Source: a virus
Virus record (IMG/VR): IMGVR_UViG_3300042880_000416
Span: 1-40,142 of that record
Length of the DNA stretch: 40,142 nt
Direction: 5' to 3' (one strand)
Shown: positions 1,542 to 40,086 of the stretch, one piece after another
Layout of the letters: every line of letters begins with the position of its first letter
Numbering within the stretch: the first letter of the stretch is position 1
Position numbers and translations under genes: made by a program
Notes under the pieces: generated by a model
What the model saw: only the letters and a program-made list of their open reading frames with translations
Told to the model about the DNA's origin: nothing
Databases searched by the model: none

Positions 1542-1570
1542 TTGACATTTGATCGGCTGTGGTGTATAAT
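1542..1570 (+). promoter_or_regulatory. Consensus sigma-70 promoter of the Y RNA/tRNA/Ro60 unit
   Basis: TTGACA (1542-1547), a 17-bp spacer and TATAAT (1565-1570) make a full-consensus promoter. Transcription should begin near 1577-1580, at the first base pairs of the Y-RNA-like hairpin. It is the best promoter in the window and would drive a stable-RNA unit. Confidence 0.85.
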
Positions 1571-1576
1571 GAAAAC

Positions 1577-1648
1577 ACAGGGGACGACTGAAAAGGGTTA
1601 TCAAACTCTTACTTTGGAAAAGTCCTTTTCGAAAATTTACCCCTAAAC
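1577..1648 (+). ncRNA. Y-RNA-like hairpin, copy 1
   Basis: The predicted RNA has an outer stem AGGGG/CCCCT (1579-1583 with 1640-1644). An internal loop of ACGACT opposite an A/U-rich strand follows. The inner stem is GAAAAGG/CCTTTTC (1590-1596 with 1624-1630), 7 bp and perfect. The apical loop opens with GTTATCA and holds a small ACTTT/AAAGT hairpin. Copy 2 at 1847-1916 shares the inner stem, ACGA-TGAAAAGGGTTATCA and GTCCTTTTCGAA, but has a different outer stem that still pairs. A stem interrupted by a CGA-containing bulge and a GGGUUAUCA stretch recalls known Y RNAs. With a Ro60 gene downstream, a Y RNA is the best reading. Confidence 0.7.
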
Positions 1649-1721
1649 GGTCGCATAACTCAATGGCTAGAGTGCTACTTTTACACAGTAGAAGTTATAG
1701 GTTCGAATCCTATTGTGACTA
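1649..1721 (+). tRNA. tRNA-Val (anticodon UAC)
   Basis: A 73-nt cloverleaf: acceptor GGTCGCA/TGTGACT with two G-U pairs, D stem ACTC/GAGT, anticodon stem CTACT/AGTAG, loop TTTACAC with UAC at 34-36, and T arm ATAGG-TTCGAAT-CCTAT. CCA is not encoded. It begins 5 nt after the Y-RNA-like copy 1, so RNase P cleavage here would also trim that RNA. Confidence 0.88.
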
Positions 1722-1723
1722 TT

Positions 1724-1846
1724 GCCGGGATAGTTTAATTGGCTAGAACACGTAAAAGTCTTGAATAAGTTTTGACAATCGTGTACGATCATTCAAGGTT
1801 ATCCAATTGTAATGGCGATGTATAGGTTCGAATCCTATTCCCGGCG
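1724..1846 (+). ncRNA. tRNA-like RNA with expanded anticodon domain
   Basis: The acceptor GCCGGGA/TCCCGGC is perfect. The D arm (GTTT/GAAC with AATTGGCTA) and the T arm (ATAGG-TTCGAAT-CCTAT) are intact. The element is 123 nt, about 48 nt too long. In place of an anticodon arm lies a region with a 7-bp stem CTTGAAT/ATTCAAG (1760-1766 with 1791-1797), a nested ATCG-TGTA-CGAT hairpin, and then GGTTATCC. No anticodon can be assigned. It is far too short for a group I intron. It may be a tRNA mimic related to Y RNA biology, a spliced tRNA, or a pseudo-tRNA kept as a processing signal. Confidence 0.65.
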
Positions 1847-1916
1847 CTTGAGTACGAATGAAAAGGGTTATCATTTGGAGAAAACGTCCTTTTCGAATAT
1901 TTTACTCATTTTTTTT
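1847..1916 (+). ncRNA. Y-RNA-like hairpin, copy 2, with U-run
   Basis: The outer stem is TGAGTA/TACTCA (1849-1854 with 1903-1908) and the inner stem GAAAAGG/CCTTTTC (1860-1866 with 1888-1894). The loop opens with GTTATCA and contains TTTGGA as in copy 1. Eight Ts follow at 1909-1916, so the hairpin may also act as an intrinsic terminator or attenuator 27 nt before the Ro60 start. Its 5' end lies 2 nt after the tRNA-like element, where 3' tRNA processing would free it. Confidence 0.7.
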
Positions 1917-1943
1917 ACTTTTGTACGAACGAGGAGAATTTGA

Positions 1944-3521
1944 ATGACTTTCAAGTATAGTTTGAAAAATGGGTCTGTTAAACAAAAAATCGTTGGCAGA
2001 TCTTCTGAAATGGTTGCAAACGCTGGTGGCGGATACGCATTTAAGCTAGATGATTTTAAATTTCTAGAAAGATTTTTAATCATGGGCGCCACATCTGGAA
2101 CCTACCATATTTCTAAAAATGATCACCAATACAATAACTTTGAAAACATTATTAGTTGCATCAAGCAAGATGGAGTTAAGGTTGTTTCAGAAATTGTTAG
2201 AGTTTCTACAAACAATCTTGCTCACAAAAACGATCATGCTATTTTTGCATTAGCATTGGTGTTTGCTCATGGATCAAATGACGCCAAACAAAGCGCTGTA
2301 AAAGCCTTCAATAGCGTTGTTAGAACCGGCACTCATTTGTTTATGTTCGCTAGCTTTATCAAGTCTATGAGAGGGTTTGGTATTTCTGTAAGAACAGCGA
2401 TTAACAAGTGGTACACCGAAAAAAGCGATATCGGTTTTGCTAATCAAGTAACAAAATATCAAAGCCGAGAAGGCTGGTCGCACCTAGATGTGTTTAGACT
2501 TGCTCACCCAAGCTTTGCTAGTAGCGAATCAAAAAATAGGATTTCTAATTGGGTCGCCGGAAAAGATGTAGAATTCAATACATCCAACAATGGAGAAGCC
2601 CTGGTTGATGCTTTTGTTAGAGTTCATAAAACAGAATCTCTAAAACAAGTGTTAGAAATGGTTTCTACTTATGGGCTTCAAAGAGAGCATTTGCCAACCA
2701 AATTTTTGAACACAAAAGAAGTTCAAGAAGTTATGTTGCCAAAACTTGGAGGAACCGCCCTTTTAAGAAACCTTGGTAACATGTCCAAGAGTGGGCTATT
2801 GAGCGTTTTTAGTGATGCTTCTAAGTTTGTAGTTGAAAAACTGACAAACAAAGAGTTCCTAAAAGAAAATATGCTTCACCCACTAACAATTCTAGTAGCT
2901 AAAAAGACATACGAAAGTGGTCGAAGCAAGCTAGGGTCTGGAGTTTGGGACGTAAATAGTTCGATAGTAGACGCTCTTGAAACAGCATTCTATTTATCGT
3001 TTGACGCTATCGAGCCAACTGGTAAAAACTACTTTTATGGTATCGACGTGTCTGGTTCTATGGGCGCAGAGGATTCAACCGGACTGAAATACTGCGAGAT
3101 TGCCGCTGTGTTAGCAATGGCACACCTAAGATCAGAAGCGAATACTTTTGTTGGAGGGTTTTCTAGTGACTTTATTGATCTAAAAATCAGTAAATCAGAT
3201 ACACTAAATTCAGCTTCTGCTAAATGTATAATGCGTAACTTTGGGTCTACCAACGCTTCTGCGGCTATCAATTACGCCGCAAGGAAGAAGATTCCAGCAG
3301 ATTGTTTTGTAATGATAACAGACTGTGAAGTTAATAGAGGTTCGCACCCAACGATTGCTTTAAATGACTTTAGGCAAAAAATGGGAAGACAAAGTTCGCT
3401 GATCGTTTGCGGCCTACAAGCTGTTCCATACTCTGTAGCAGATCCAAAAGATCCATTACAGCTAGACATTTCTGGATTTTCTCCAGATATTACTTCGGTT
3501 ATCTCTGGATTTACTAGATAA
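1944..3521 (+). CDS. rsr: Ro60/TROVE-domain RNA-binding protein
   Basis: A full-length 525-residue Ro60 ortholog, close to the usual 530. Residues about 20-345 form the HEAT-like TROVE ring, with the GGTALLRNLGNM segment (269-280) and the HPLTILVAKKTYESG segment (312-326) characteristic of Ro. Residues about 360-525 form a von Willebrand A domain with an intact metal site: D368, S370 and S372 in DVSGSMG, T436 and D460. Ro60 proteins bind Y RNAs on the outer ring and ends of misfolded or damaged RNAs in the cavity. In bacteria they work with exoribonucleases and sit beside RNA-repair genes. GAGGAG precedes the ATG. Two Y-RNA-like RNAs lie directly upstream in the same unit. rsr is the symbol used for bacterial Ro genes. 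Confidence 0.93.
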   Translation: MTFKYSLKNGSVKQKIVGRSSEMVANAGGGYAFKLDDFKFLERFLIMGATSGTYHISKNDHQYNNFENIISCIKQDGVKVVSEIVRVSTNNLAHKNDHAIFALALVFAHGSNDAKQSAVKAFNSVVRTGTHLFMFASFIKSMRGFGISVRTAINKWYTEKSDIGFANQVTKYQSREGWSHLDVFRLAHPSFASSESKNRISNWVAGKDVEFNTSNNGEALVDAFVRVHKTESLKQVLEMVSTYGLQREHLPTKFLNTKEVQEVMLPKLGGTALLRNLGNMSKSGLLSVFSDASKFVVEKLTNKEFLKENMLHPLTILVAKKTYESGRSKLGSGVWDVNSSIVDALETAFYLSFDAIEPTGKNYFYGIDVSGSMGAEDSTGLKYCEIAAVLAMAHLRSEANTFVGGFSSDFIDLKISKSDTLNSASAKCIMRNFGSTNASAAINYAARKKIPADCFVMITDCEVNRGSHPTIALNDFRQKMGRQSSLIVCGLQAVPYSVADPKDPLQLDISGFSPDITSVISGFTR

Positions 3522-3575: not shown

Positions 3576-3956
3576 ATGAATATATTATTTTTAGATGACT
3601 GCCCACAAAGAACTAAAAAGTTTAAAAGACTGCTTCCAATGGCGGTTACATGCGAAACGGCGCAGGAGTGTATAGACCTGCTTCACACAGAGGATTGGGA
3701 CTATGTATTTCTAGATCACGATCTTGGCGGTGAGACATACCAAAGTTCAGATGAATTTAACACTGGTATGCAAGTGGTTCGCAGCGTAATGGAAAATCCC
3801 CCAAACGTTCAGCACTTTGTTGTACACTCTTTAAACTACGGTGCGGCCCTCAATATGGTGAGTTTATTGCGAGAGCGCGAATACATTACAACAAAATGTA
3901 GTTTTTTAGAAATTGAAAATTTCATTAGAACAAAAATTTACGGGTATCTAGATTAA
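3576..3956 (+). CDS. Cyclic-phosphate-processing receiver-like protein (cREC)
   Basis: A 126-residue receiver-fold protein. The acidic pair LDD (residues 6-8) and R12 are followed by FLDHDLGG (46-52), then FVVHSLNYGAALNM (81-94). The DHDLG and HS-N-G-M motifs mark the cREC family, which Burroughs and Aravind predicted to process cyclic phosphates at RNA ends in RNA-repair systems. Ordinary response regulators lack these histidines. It follows the Ro60 gene after a terminator and is nearly joined to the ATP-grasp gene 2 nt downstream. The enzymatic role in this phage is inferred. A strong GAGGAAAT leader precedes the ATG. Confidence 0.7.
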   Translation: MNILFLDDCPQRTKKFKRLLPMAVTCETAQECIDLLHTEDWDYVFLDHDLGGETYQSSDEFNTGMQVVRSVMENPPNVQHFVVHSLNYGAALNMVSLLREREYITTKCSFLEIENFIRTKIYGYLD

Positions 3957-6988: not shown

Positions 6989-7164
6989 GATACAAGTATA
7001 TTGTTTTGGCAAAAGATCATATTGACGCTTGCGTTGTAGTGAGTACAAAGTATAATAAGAAAACAACCGATCAACTTTGGAAAGTTTCAGAGCAGGGGTT
7101 TGACGATCATTACGACGATAGACTTATTCCAGATAAAACTATAAGAAAACATATGGGTCGATAG
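6961..7164 (+). CDS. Hypothetical 67-aa protein ending inside a tRNA gene
   Basis: A small soluble protein with a beta-rich start and an acidic, Tyr- and Asp-rich second half. It has no clear ribosome site and probably depends on coupling to the upstream gene, which it overlaps by 28 nt. Its last 10 nt are also the first bases of tRNA-Arg(ACG), so RNase P cleavage of a shared transcript would destroy this mRNA's stop codon. Confidence 0.55.
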   Translation: MPKFYVSFLGYKYIVLAKDHIDACVVVSTKYNKKTTDQLWKVSEQGFDDHYDDRLIPDKTIRKHMGR

Positions 7165-7227
7165 CTCAGATGGAAAGAGCAGTAGTCTACGAAACTACAG
7201 ACACAGGTTCGACTCCTGTTCGACCTA
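7155..7227 (+). tRNA. tRNA-Arg (anticodon ACG)
   Basis: Acceptor GGGTCGA/TCGACCT, D stem GCTC/GAGC, anticodon stem GTAGT/ACTAC, loop CTACGAA with ACG, T arm ACAGG-TTCGACT-CCTGT, discriminator A. A34 would be converted to inosine by the host. CCA is not encoded. Confidence 0.9.
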
Positions 7228-7229
7228 CT

Positions 7230-7303
7230 GGACTGGTAGCTTAATTGGTTAAAGCACCTGACTTTGACTCAGGTTATTGGGAGTTCGAATCTCCCCCGGT
7301 CTG
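7230..7303 (+). tRNA. tRNA-Gln (anticodon UUG)
   Basis: Acceptor GGACTGG/CCGGTCT, D stem GCTT/AAGC, anticodon stem CCTGA/TCAGG, loop CTTTGAC with UUG, T arm GGGAG-TTCGAAT-CTCCC, discriminator G. It lies 2 nt after tRNA-Arg. Confidence 0.9.
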
Positions 7304-7304
7304 C

Positions 7305-7380
7305 TTGCTTGTGGTGTTAATCCAGGCAACACGCATCACGCTTCGTAGATGAATTACTGGTTCAAATCCAGTCAGGCAAA
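7305..7380 (+). tRNA. tRNA-like element with abnormal anticodon arm
   Basis: The acceptor TTGCTTG/CAGGCAA (one G-U), D stem GTGTT/AACAC and T arm ACTGG-TTCAAAT-CCAGT are good. The anticodon arm is CATC/GATG and continues as ACG/CGT around a 3-nt loop with a bulged A, so there is no normal 7-nt loop and no anticodon can be named. It begins 1 nt after tRNA-Gln, so it would be processed with it. It could be an odd tRNA or a tRNA mimic. Confidence 0.55.
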
Positions 7381-7402
7381 TATTTTTAAATAGGGGATTT
7401 TT

Positions 7403-7588
7403 ATGACATTGTTTAATGCTTTTCAGATAGTCGCGGCTTTTGTTGGTTGGCCATTTTTAATTAGCTGGCTCACAACAGCAGAATTTAAGGGCGCTGGAGT
7501 TGCTTTTTATGCGGCCTGTGCTTTATATGTTGTTGCTTTTGGATTTATGACATTAACTGTCGCAGATGCAATAGAAGATAGTAAATAA
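7403..7588 (+). CDS. Small two-helix membrane protein
   Basis: A 61-residue protein with hydrophobic helices at about residues 6-24 and 31-54 and an acidic tail. An AGGGGA leader precedes the ATG. It is placed between two tRNA groups. The family is not recognised. Confidence 0.65.
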   Translation: MTLFNAFQIVAAFVGWPFLISWLTTAEFKGAGVAFYAACALYVVAFGFMTLTVADAIEDSK

Positions 7589-7591
7589 CTG

Positions 7592-7619
7592 TTGACAACC
7601 GCGATTTGTATGTTATAAT
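7592..7619 (+). promoter_or_regulatory. Sigma-70-like promoter of the second tRNA group
   Basis: TTGACA (7592-7597), a 16-bp spacer and TATAAT (7614-7619). The expected start near 7626 is about 12 nt before tRNA-Arg(UCU). Confidence 0.8.
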
Positions 7620-7637
7620 GTGTGTATGAAAACAAAT

Positions 7638-7711
7638 GCTTCCATAGCTCAATTGGATAGAGCAACTGCCTTCTAAGCAGTAGGTTGTAGGTTCGAGTCC
7701 TACTGGAAGTG
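7638..7711 (+). tRNA. tRNA-Arg (anticodon UCU)
   Basis: Acceptor GCTTCCA/TGGAAGT, D stem GCTC/GAGC, anticodon stem ACTGC/GCAGT, loop CTTCTAA with UCU, T arm GTAGG-TTCGAGT-CCTAC, discriminator G. It reads AGA, a codon common in this AT-rich genome. Confidence 0.92.
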
Positions 7712-7716
7712 CTTAT

Positions 7717-7789
7717 GCGTTATTGGTGTTCAATGGTAGCACGCTAGTCTTCCAAACTAATAGAGGGAGTTCGAGTCTCCCATAACGCA
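7717..7789 (+). tRNA. tRNA-Gly (anticodon UCC)
   Basis: Acceptor GCGTTAT/ATAACGC is perfect. D stem GTGT/GCAC, loop CTTCCAA with UCC, T arm GGGAG-TTCGAGT-CTCCC, discriminator A. The anticodon stem CTAGT/ACTAA has one C-A mismatch at its base. Confidence 0.87.
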
Positions 7790-7808
7790 CTTTAAAAAGG
7801 AGAATAAA

Positions 7809-8108
7809 ATGAAAGTTGACTCTTATTATGTTGCAATTACAATTGCTGTATCTTTTTTAGGTGTTGCATTTTTTATTATTCCAGCACTGGTTCCAAAGAA
7901 CAAGCCAAAAATAGAGGTTATAGACTCTAAACCTAAAGTAGCTAAGCAAAGACAATTAAAGAAAGTCAAGTGCGTATGCGACAAAGGAGTTTTTACTTAC
8001 GAGCCAGACGACGACTTGGTTAAGCTTGGATTTGCAAAGGCTGGCGAAAAGGGGCCGTGTGGGTATTGTCACGGCGAAGGATTTTTATATGAAGAAGAAG
8101 CCCGATAA
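7809..8108 (+). CDS. Membrane-anchored protein with DnaJ-like zinc motif
   Basis: A 99-residue protein with one N-terminal transmembrane helix (about residues 7-28), a basic linker, and a C-terminal segment with CVC followed by CGYCHGEG. The latter resembles one zinc module of the DnaJ cysteine-rich domain, so a small zinc-binding knob on the cytoplasmic side is likely. The partner is unknown. AAGGAG precedes the ATG, and tRNA-Met begins 3 nt after the stop. Confidence 0.65.
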   Translation: MKVDSYYVAITIAVSFLGVAFFIIPALVPKNKPKIEVIDSKPKVAKQRQLKKVKCVCDKGVFTYEPDDDLVKLGFAKAGEKGPCGYCHGEGFLYEEEAR

Positions 8109-8111
8109 AAC

Positions 8112-8181
8112 GCCGATATTCCATGGCTGGGGGCGTGGTTTCATAAGCCACAGCACTAAGGTTCGATTCCTTTTATCGGCA
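8112..8181 (+). tRNA. tRNA-Met/Ile-type (anticodon CAU)
   Basis: Acceptor GCCGATA/TATCGGC is perfect, the anticodon stem is GTGGT/GCCAC and the loop TTCATAA carries CAU. The T loop is TTCGATT with a 4-bp core stem. The D arm is very short, giving 70 nt overall. CAU could be elongator Met or a lysidine-modified Ile; this cannot be told by eye. Confidence 0.8.
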
Positions 8182-8203
8182 CTATAATTTGAAAGACACA
8201 AAA

Positions 8204-39410: not shown

Positions 39411-39584
39411 ATGAACGAATTAGATAAGATTAAATGGAAATTCTTTTGTATTCTTGTTGTAATATATGGAATAGCTGGGGGCATTGCTGTTTATAAACTT
39501 GATAGAGATATCCTAAACTTGAAAAATAAAGTGAAACATCTAGAGGAAAAACATGAGATACAACCTACAATGGCTAAAAAATAA
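39411..39584 (+). CDS. 57-aa signal-anchored protein
   Basis: One transmembrane helix (about residues 10-28) is followed by a charged helix. It lies between the 74-aa gene and the NADAR gene and overlaps the latter by 32 nt. The function is unknown. Confidence 0.45.
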   Translation: MNELDKIKWKFFCILVVIYGIAGGIAVYKLDRDILNLKNKVKHLEEKHEIQPTMAKK

Positions 39585-40086
39585 AATCTCTTCTGGCGAG
39601 CCGGTAGAGTATCTGTTCTTTTACGGTCACACCCCGCCCAAGGATGGTTCTATCGACAAATCGTGTTTAAGTCAGTGGTATGACGCACCATTTTTAGGTA
39701 TGGCCACAGCAGAACACTATATGATGTATGTCAAGGCAGATATCTTTGGTGATGATGAAACGTCCGACAAAATTTTAGAATCTAAATGTCCAAGGCAGGC
39801 AAAAGCACTAGGACGTTCAGTGAAAAACTACGATGAAAAAATATGGAATAAAAGAAGATATGCCGTAGTTGTTGATGGAAATCTTGGTAAATTCTTGGAA
39901 CATCCAAAACTTAAAGAATTTTTGCTCTCTACGGGCGATAAGGTGCTTGTAGAAGCTAGTCCATATGATAAAATATGGGGCATCGGGCTTGGAATTACAG
40001 ACCAACGCAATCAAAATCCCGATAACTGGACGGGAGAAAATCTTTTGGGATTTGCTTTAATGGAAGTGAGGGATATGCTTAGTTAA
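39553..40086 (+). CDS. NADAR-family (YbiA-like) glycohydrolase
   Basis: A 177-residue enzyme. LSQWYDAPF (39-47), TAEHYMMYVKADIFGD (52-67, with K61), KALGR (84-88), EASPYDKIWGIGL (134-146) and NLLG (163-166) are the NADAR signature. The family hydrolyses N-glycosidic bonds; some members remove ADP-ribose from guanine bases and so reverse DarT-type toxins, others act on riboflavin intermediates. In a phage a role against host ADP-ribosylation defence is attractive but unproven. GAGG precedes the ATG. Confidence 0.88.
   Translation: MRYNLQWLKNKISSGEPVEYLFFYGHTPPKDGSIDKSCLSQWYDAPFLGMATAEHYMMYVKADIFGDDETSDKILESKCPRQAKALGRSVKNYDEKIWNKRRYAVVVDGNLGKFLEHPKLKEFLLSTGDKVLVEASPYDKIWGIGLGITDQRNQNPDNWTGENLLGFALMEVRDMLS

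Follow-up and report, generated by a model that had tools for sequence, protein, structure and literature searches.

Ro60 and the RNAs encoded ahead of it

The window, that is, the whole 40,142-nucleotide stretch of viral DNA that we analysed, carries a Ro60/Rsr gene on the plus strand at 1944–3521, preceded by the ribosome-binding site GAGGAG (1931–1936, same strand). The 525-residue product contains both Ro60 domains according to Pfam (vWA_Ro60, 5.7e-36; TROVE, 2e-30), and it matched Xenopus Ro60 (1YVP, 2.5e-86) and D. radiodurans Rsr (2NVO, 1.3e-74) nearly from end to end. The MIDAS residues of the vWA domain (DxSxS, T, D), namely D368, S370, S372, T436 and D460, did not vary among six phage Ro60s. 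The first-pass annotation had proposed a full-length Ro60/TROVE gene with an intact vWA metal site, and both points were borne out.

Upstream, a sigma-70 promoter (TTGACA-17-TATAAT, 1542–1570, plus strand) agrees with the consensus at 12/12 positions. Behind it comes a YrlB-like Y hairpin without tRNA module (Y hairpin 1, 1579–1644, plus strand), made of an outer stem (1579–1583/1640–1644), a CGA bulge (1585–1587), an inner stem (1590–1596/1624–1630) and the motif TTATC (1598–1602). An ordinary tRNA-Val (TAC) follows at 1649–1721 on the plus strand (ARAGORN; Rfam tRNA, 67 bits), then a tRNA-like RNA at 1724–1846. The last element ahead of Ro60 is Y hairpin 2 (1849–1908, plus strand), with its outer stem at 1849–1854/1903–1908, CGAA at 1855–1858, inner stem at 1860–1866/1888–1894 and TTATC at 1868–1872; a T run (1909–1917) comes directly after it.

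The two hairpins have in common two blocks (19/20 and 19/21 bases) lying 264–270 nt apart, and in both a stem pairing the ends and bearing a CGA bulge leads to an inner stem and GGTTATC, in a gene that adjoins Ro60. Outer stem, CGA bulge, inner stem and GGTTATC are also found in the short Y RNAs, such as those of animals and Salmonella YrlB (rsr-yrlBA-rtcBA operon). YrlB is not known to have a tRNA module. In contrast to short-Y-RNA systems, the window has two hairpin copies that flank a tRNA and the tRNA-like RNA. Since the single-sequence folding energies were unremarkable (z of -0.8 and -0.95), the hairpins were not supported by folding alone. Both are kept in the sister phage L007 and one is kept in a second related locus, L008, where the inner stem shows a G-C to A-T change. 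The consensus promoter and the two related Y-type hairpins behind it had been read correctly from the letters.

In L007, whose Ro60 is 88% identical, the whole unit was conserved with the same order of elements; L008 (Ro60 53% identical) presented the promoter, one Y hairpin, two copies of the tRNA-like RNA and then Ro60. The promoter thus precedes the Ro60 unit in both. Because the order is identical in L007 and similar in L008, the unit does not reflect chance, and the window, as judged from its sequence, carries a phage Ro60–Y RNA unit. Directly 3' of Ro60, the window encodes a cREC (cyclic-phosphate processing receiver) protein (3576–3956). This gene was ruled out as part of the Ro60 system, as the adjacency was conserved in L007 only. 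We also observed a permuted tmRNA (RF04321, 66.6 bits) 5' of Ro60 in L007 (2294–2583), the corresponding place in the window being without match.

A tRNA with a Y stem in its anticodon arm

In the RNA at 1724–1846 (plus strand), a circularly permuted Y stem is built into a tRNA cloverleaf, as indicated by Rfam, a rule-based scan and a consensus fold, and we refer to this RNA as a tRNA-Y. With the Rfam tRNA model (RF00005) it scored 44 bits with a large insert, the acceptor (1724–1730/1839–1845, 7 bp), D arm (1733–1749) and T arm (1822–1838) all being present. The anticodon arm is discontinuous, an insert of 50 nt (1753–1802, plus strand) splitting it between tRNA nucleotides 28 and 29. Its stem is formed by 1751–1752 and 1803–1805 facing 1813–1817, with the loop ATTGTAA at 1806–1812, so that a complete stem-loop can be read across the insert: C27 G28 [insert] C29 C30 A31-ATTGTAA-T39 G40 G41 C42 G43.

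Within the insert, a lead (TAAAAGT) is followed by the 3' strand of the Y stem (CTTGAAT, 1760–1766), a closed outer hairpin (1767–1790, with CGA at 1786–1788), the 5' strand (ATTCAAG, 1791–1797) and GTTAT, giving the order lead-CTTGAAT-AAGTTTTGAC-loop-GTACGATC-ATTCAAG-GTTAT. The insert is thus a rotated Y hairpin: it matched Y hairpins 1 and 2 best when opened in its closing loop, the best rotation points in its 50 nt being 27 for the former and 26–28 for the latter. In L008, GATTAAC stands in place of GGTTATC in the tRNA-Ys as well as in the Y hairpin, and the Y stems of the former read CTTGTAT/ATACAAG and CAAGCAT/ATGTTTG, a compensatory covariation. The outer Y hairpin of the window copy is short and AT-rich, which counts against this interpretation. 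By its predicted fold, the tRNA-like RNA is itself a Y RNA, the third Y element of the unit. The first-pass annotation had described a unit of two Y RNAs, a tRNA and a tRNA-like RNA as new. As far as we could find, the arrangement is indeed undescribed; the number of Y modules has to be raised to three, given the circularly permuted Y stem that the tRNA-like RNA carries in its anticodon arm.

Annotation tools overlook such RNAs. Neither ARAGORN nor the Rfam YrlA model reported the tRNA-Y at 1724–1846, and the Rfam tRNA model sees in it no more than a low-scoring tRNA interrupted by an insert. A dedicated model, R1, gave it 113.8 bits, the sequence being among the 11 on which R1 was trained. 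As R1 includes a tRNA, ordinary tRNAs reach ~55 bits, and matches were accepted only above ~55 bits and >105 nt. Otherwise we relied on a rule-based scan (7/7 acceptor, D arm, T arm and length) over Ro60 loci and viral contigs found by RNA pattern, which returned 23 real matches against 0 in reversed and 0–1 in shuffled sequences. A DNA pattern describing the outer Y hairpin in its closed form was discarded, its matches being mostly due to chance. In total, the scan yielded ~35 tRNA-Ys, which come from uncultivated viruses and from a small number of bacteria.

RNAalifold, run unprompted on 11 of these RNAs, returned the acceptor, D, Y, anticodon and T stems and the outer Y hairpin, with double-sided changes in 23/29 pairs. 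Of 18 tRNA-Ys, 16 also pair 27–28 with 42–43 across the insert (shuffle mean 5.2, maximum 12 in 20,000), a pairing that had played no part in their selection. Insert length varies between 38 and 75 nt, and in a minority the Y stem is found not at 28/29 but in the region of the anticodon loop. In some relatives the 3' end includes an encoded ACCA. As to amino-acid identity, Thr is possible for the window tRNA-Y, and relatives combine class I bodies with Ser or Leu anticodons.

Relation to YrlA and exchange between the two forms

In its crystal structure, YrlA is a circularly permuted tRNA (PMC11472068). The Rfam YrlA model places the T arm 5' of the D arm. Like the tRNA-Y, YrlA (RF02553; Salmonella 6CU1) is adjacent to Ro60, carries a Ro60-type Y stem at 28/29 of a tRNA-like fold and has D, T, acceptor and often anticodon arms. 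In YrlA, however, the T arm precedes the D arm, a loop closes the acceptor and the ends lie in the Y stem, whereas the window tRNA-Y follows the normal tRNA order, both its ends forming an open acceptor, and its Y stem is closed. Among 88 YrlA-type units in Ro60 loci, a short loop closes the acceptor, most commonly of 4 nt (TTCG, GCAA and others). Where the anticodon arm is clear, in 43 YrlAs, it holds the Y stem at 28/29, and 36 of these pair across the insertion at 27–28/42–43 (shuffle mean 9.3, maximum 21). After rotation in silico, YrlAs aligned end to end with tRNA-Ys and gave one consensus fold. The common 28/29 site, the rotated alignment and the shared fold indicate that tRNA-Y and YrlA are circular permutants of one RNA; on this comparison, the window tRNA-Y is the inverse permutant of YrlA. 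It is not a YrlA by definition and yet, by analogy, should work like one.

The element scored 16.5 bits with RF02553 (gathering threshold 69), and even this match was a chance bridge between the two tRNAs. Classical YrlAs, phage and bacterial, in the Ro60 loci that we scanned also fall short of the 69-bit cut-off, and since these Ro60-linked RNAs go unrecognised, the model is unfit as a negative test. Rfam contains no model for the unpermuted form, and we found no description of it in the literature searched, which was without key papers on bacterial Y RNAs. As far as we found, tRNA-mimicking bacterial Y RNAs have been known only as circular permutants, and the tRNA-Y is the most novel part of the window unit. 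It reveals YrlA as a tRNA that has received a Ro60-binding stem at 28/29 and is opened at one of two places, an identity shown by the agreement of its counterpart, the tRNA-Y, with it in insertion site and sequence motifs.

The first-pass annotation had called Ro60 with upstream Y RNA genes established in some bacteria and in a few phages such as mycobacteriophage Bxz1. Ro60 in phages is more widespread than that, being present in 348 of 50,697 phage records. In viral contigs, an alignment query retrieved the Ro60 loci and a single-protein query gave no match. The Ro60s of actinophages (Colt, Myrna, FuzzBuster, Magritte and others) are full-length, like that of the window, to which they are about 33–37% identical. 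Most of the actinophage loci examined differ from it in their RNAs, having YrlA-type RNAs beside the gene instead of an unpermuted tRNA-Y. Classical YrlA-type RNAs adjoin Ro60 in 6 of the 10 annotated phage records examined, and unpermuted tRNA-Ys were found in none of these ten loci. In cultured actinophages we noticed YrlA-type RNAs that stand unannotated beside 'Ro-like RNA binding protein' genes (L288:2060–2440, L287:2060–2450, L003:2120–2390 and L001:1600–2000). The pseudo 'tRNA-OTHER' of Rhodococcus phage Trina (L005:2098–2306) was considered as a tRNA-Y and rejected, being best explained as part of an array of permuted YrlAs.

Selecting viral contigs by the RNA pattern alone led back to Ro60 in 9 of 14 cases. 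Similarly, in one bacterial order (43 genomes), the 3 genomes with full-length Ro60 were exactly the 3 with a tRNA-Y. Across 182 Ro60 loci, a tRNA-Y was found in 23, YrlA in 62 and both in 0; about half had neither form under our strict rules. Exchanges between tRNA-Y and YrlA required at least about 10 changes on a FastTree phylogeny of Ro60, in which RNA labels were rule-based (that of L122 being doubtful) and deep branches weak. They probably took place by register shift in tandem arrays. Such a shift would interconvert the forms, because a row of tRNA-Ys contains a YrlA between neighbouring units. Given repeated exchange, the origin of a permuted tRNA mimic becomes testable.

Some tRNA-Ys lie 5' of Ro60 in Beggiatoa-like bacterial genomes (L111:956–1084, in a locus with no obvious phage genes, and L424:4310–4570, with two tandem copies). 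Beside a Chloroflexi Ro60, the stretch L091:5641–5706 matches the Rfam model of nematode stem-bulge RNA (RF01656), which is Y-related.

Possible working of the phage Ro60 unit

We consider the locus, with a probability of roughly 0.8, to be a phage Ro60 operon whose non-coding leader comprises two short Y hairpins together with a tRNA-Val and a single tRNA-Y chimera that permutes YrlA, as far as sequence comparison can tell. The precursor would be cut at the tRNA ends by RNase P and tRNA 3' processing. Ro60 would then bind the internal Y stem of the tRNA-Y, which would gate the Ro60 ring, and the tRNA body would protrude, either recruiting a partner or being recognised by tRNA-handling enzymes. 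The resulting phage-made RNP may serve during infection to handle RNA that is structured or damaged, or to break it down. The tRNA-like domain of YrlA binds PNPase, as in the Rsr–YrlA–PNPase complex of Deinococcus (RYPER), and the same principle, Ro60 tethered through a tRNA-like module, is expected here (PMC8394870). By analogy with YrlA, the most likely role of the tRNA-Y is to link Ro60 to a module shaped like a tRNA. The partner in RYPER is PNPase, and its tethering by the phage RNP may be proposed by analogy only.

A bolder proposal is that tRNA-Ys mature like tRNAs (RNase P, a CCA end, perhaps charging) and that YrlA represents one state of a flipping family of chimeras; we take this to be possible, if doubtful. 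Were it true, Ro60 would be carried on RNAs with real tRNA ends and anticodons that engage tRNA enzymes or anticodon nucleases, and Y–tRNA chimeras would, by way of tandem arrays, switch again and again from one circular permutant to the other. The open acceptor allows a test of whether Ro60 RNPs are drawn into the pathways of tRNA maturation, charging or damage.

Rather unlikely, in our opinion, is a role as a decoy or sensor, in which the anticodon loop would be offered to host anticodon nucleases while Ro60 holds the RNA and handles its fragments. YrlA was proposed to inhibit an anticodon nuclease (PMC7790460), which speaks for such a role, as do anticodon loops that mostly have U33 and R37 with varied anticodons, and the RNA-repair-type cREC protein encoded directly 3' of Ro60 in the window. 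The cREC adjacency, however, is kept only in the sister phage, some tRNA-Ys miss a normal anticodon loop, and neither a nuclease nor a ligase was found among the proteins scanned.

We regard as improbable that the insert is an intron, in other words that a Y RNA, perhaps circular, is excised from a pre-tRNA to leave a working tRNA-Thr(TGT). Removing the insert does leave a complete anticodon stem-loop, with U33 and a purine at 37, and some relatives encode the 3' ACCA. The acceptor of the window tRNA-Y begins with GCCG, a start that occurs in some tRNA-Thr. Yet inserts of 38–75 nt (50 nt in the window) are too short for group I introns, whose core takes about 200 nt or more, and we found neither an Rfam intron match in the insert nor a splicing enzyme among the window proteins scanned. 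Moreover, YrlA carries this stem at the identical position without open acceptor ends, so that splicing there could not yield a tRNA, and several tRNA-Ys have Ser or Leu anticodons but not the long variable arm that those tRNAs need. Insert size, YrlA architecture and these anticodons in class I bodies together disfavour an intron. Lastly, a tRNA in decay that had gained an insertion by chance, next to an ordinary Ro60–Y RNA unit, would fit the low Rfam tRNA score (44 bits), but it is refuted by the covariation, and ~35 Ro60-linked copies with compensatory changes and mostly one insertion site leave it next to no chance.

Elsewhere in the window, a weak tRNA-like element (538–607) with a perfect acceptor and T arm and without a normal anticodon arm scored 29.2 bits with the Rfam tRNA model, just at the cut-off. 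A NADAR-domain protein is encoded at 39553–40086 (2.2e-50), and five phage tRNAs (Arg, Gln, Arg, Gly, Met) are clustered at 7155–8182.
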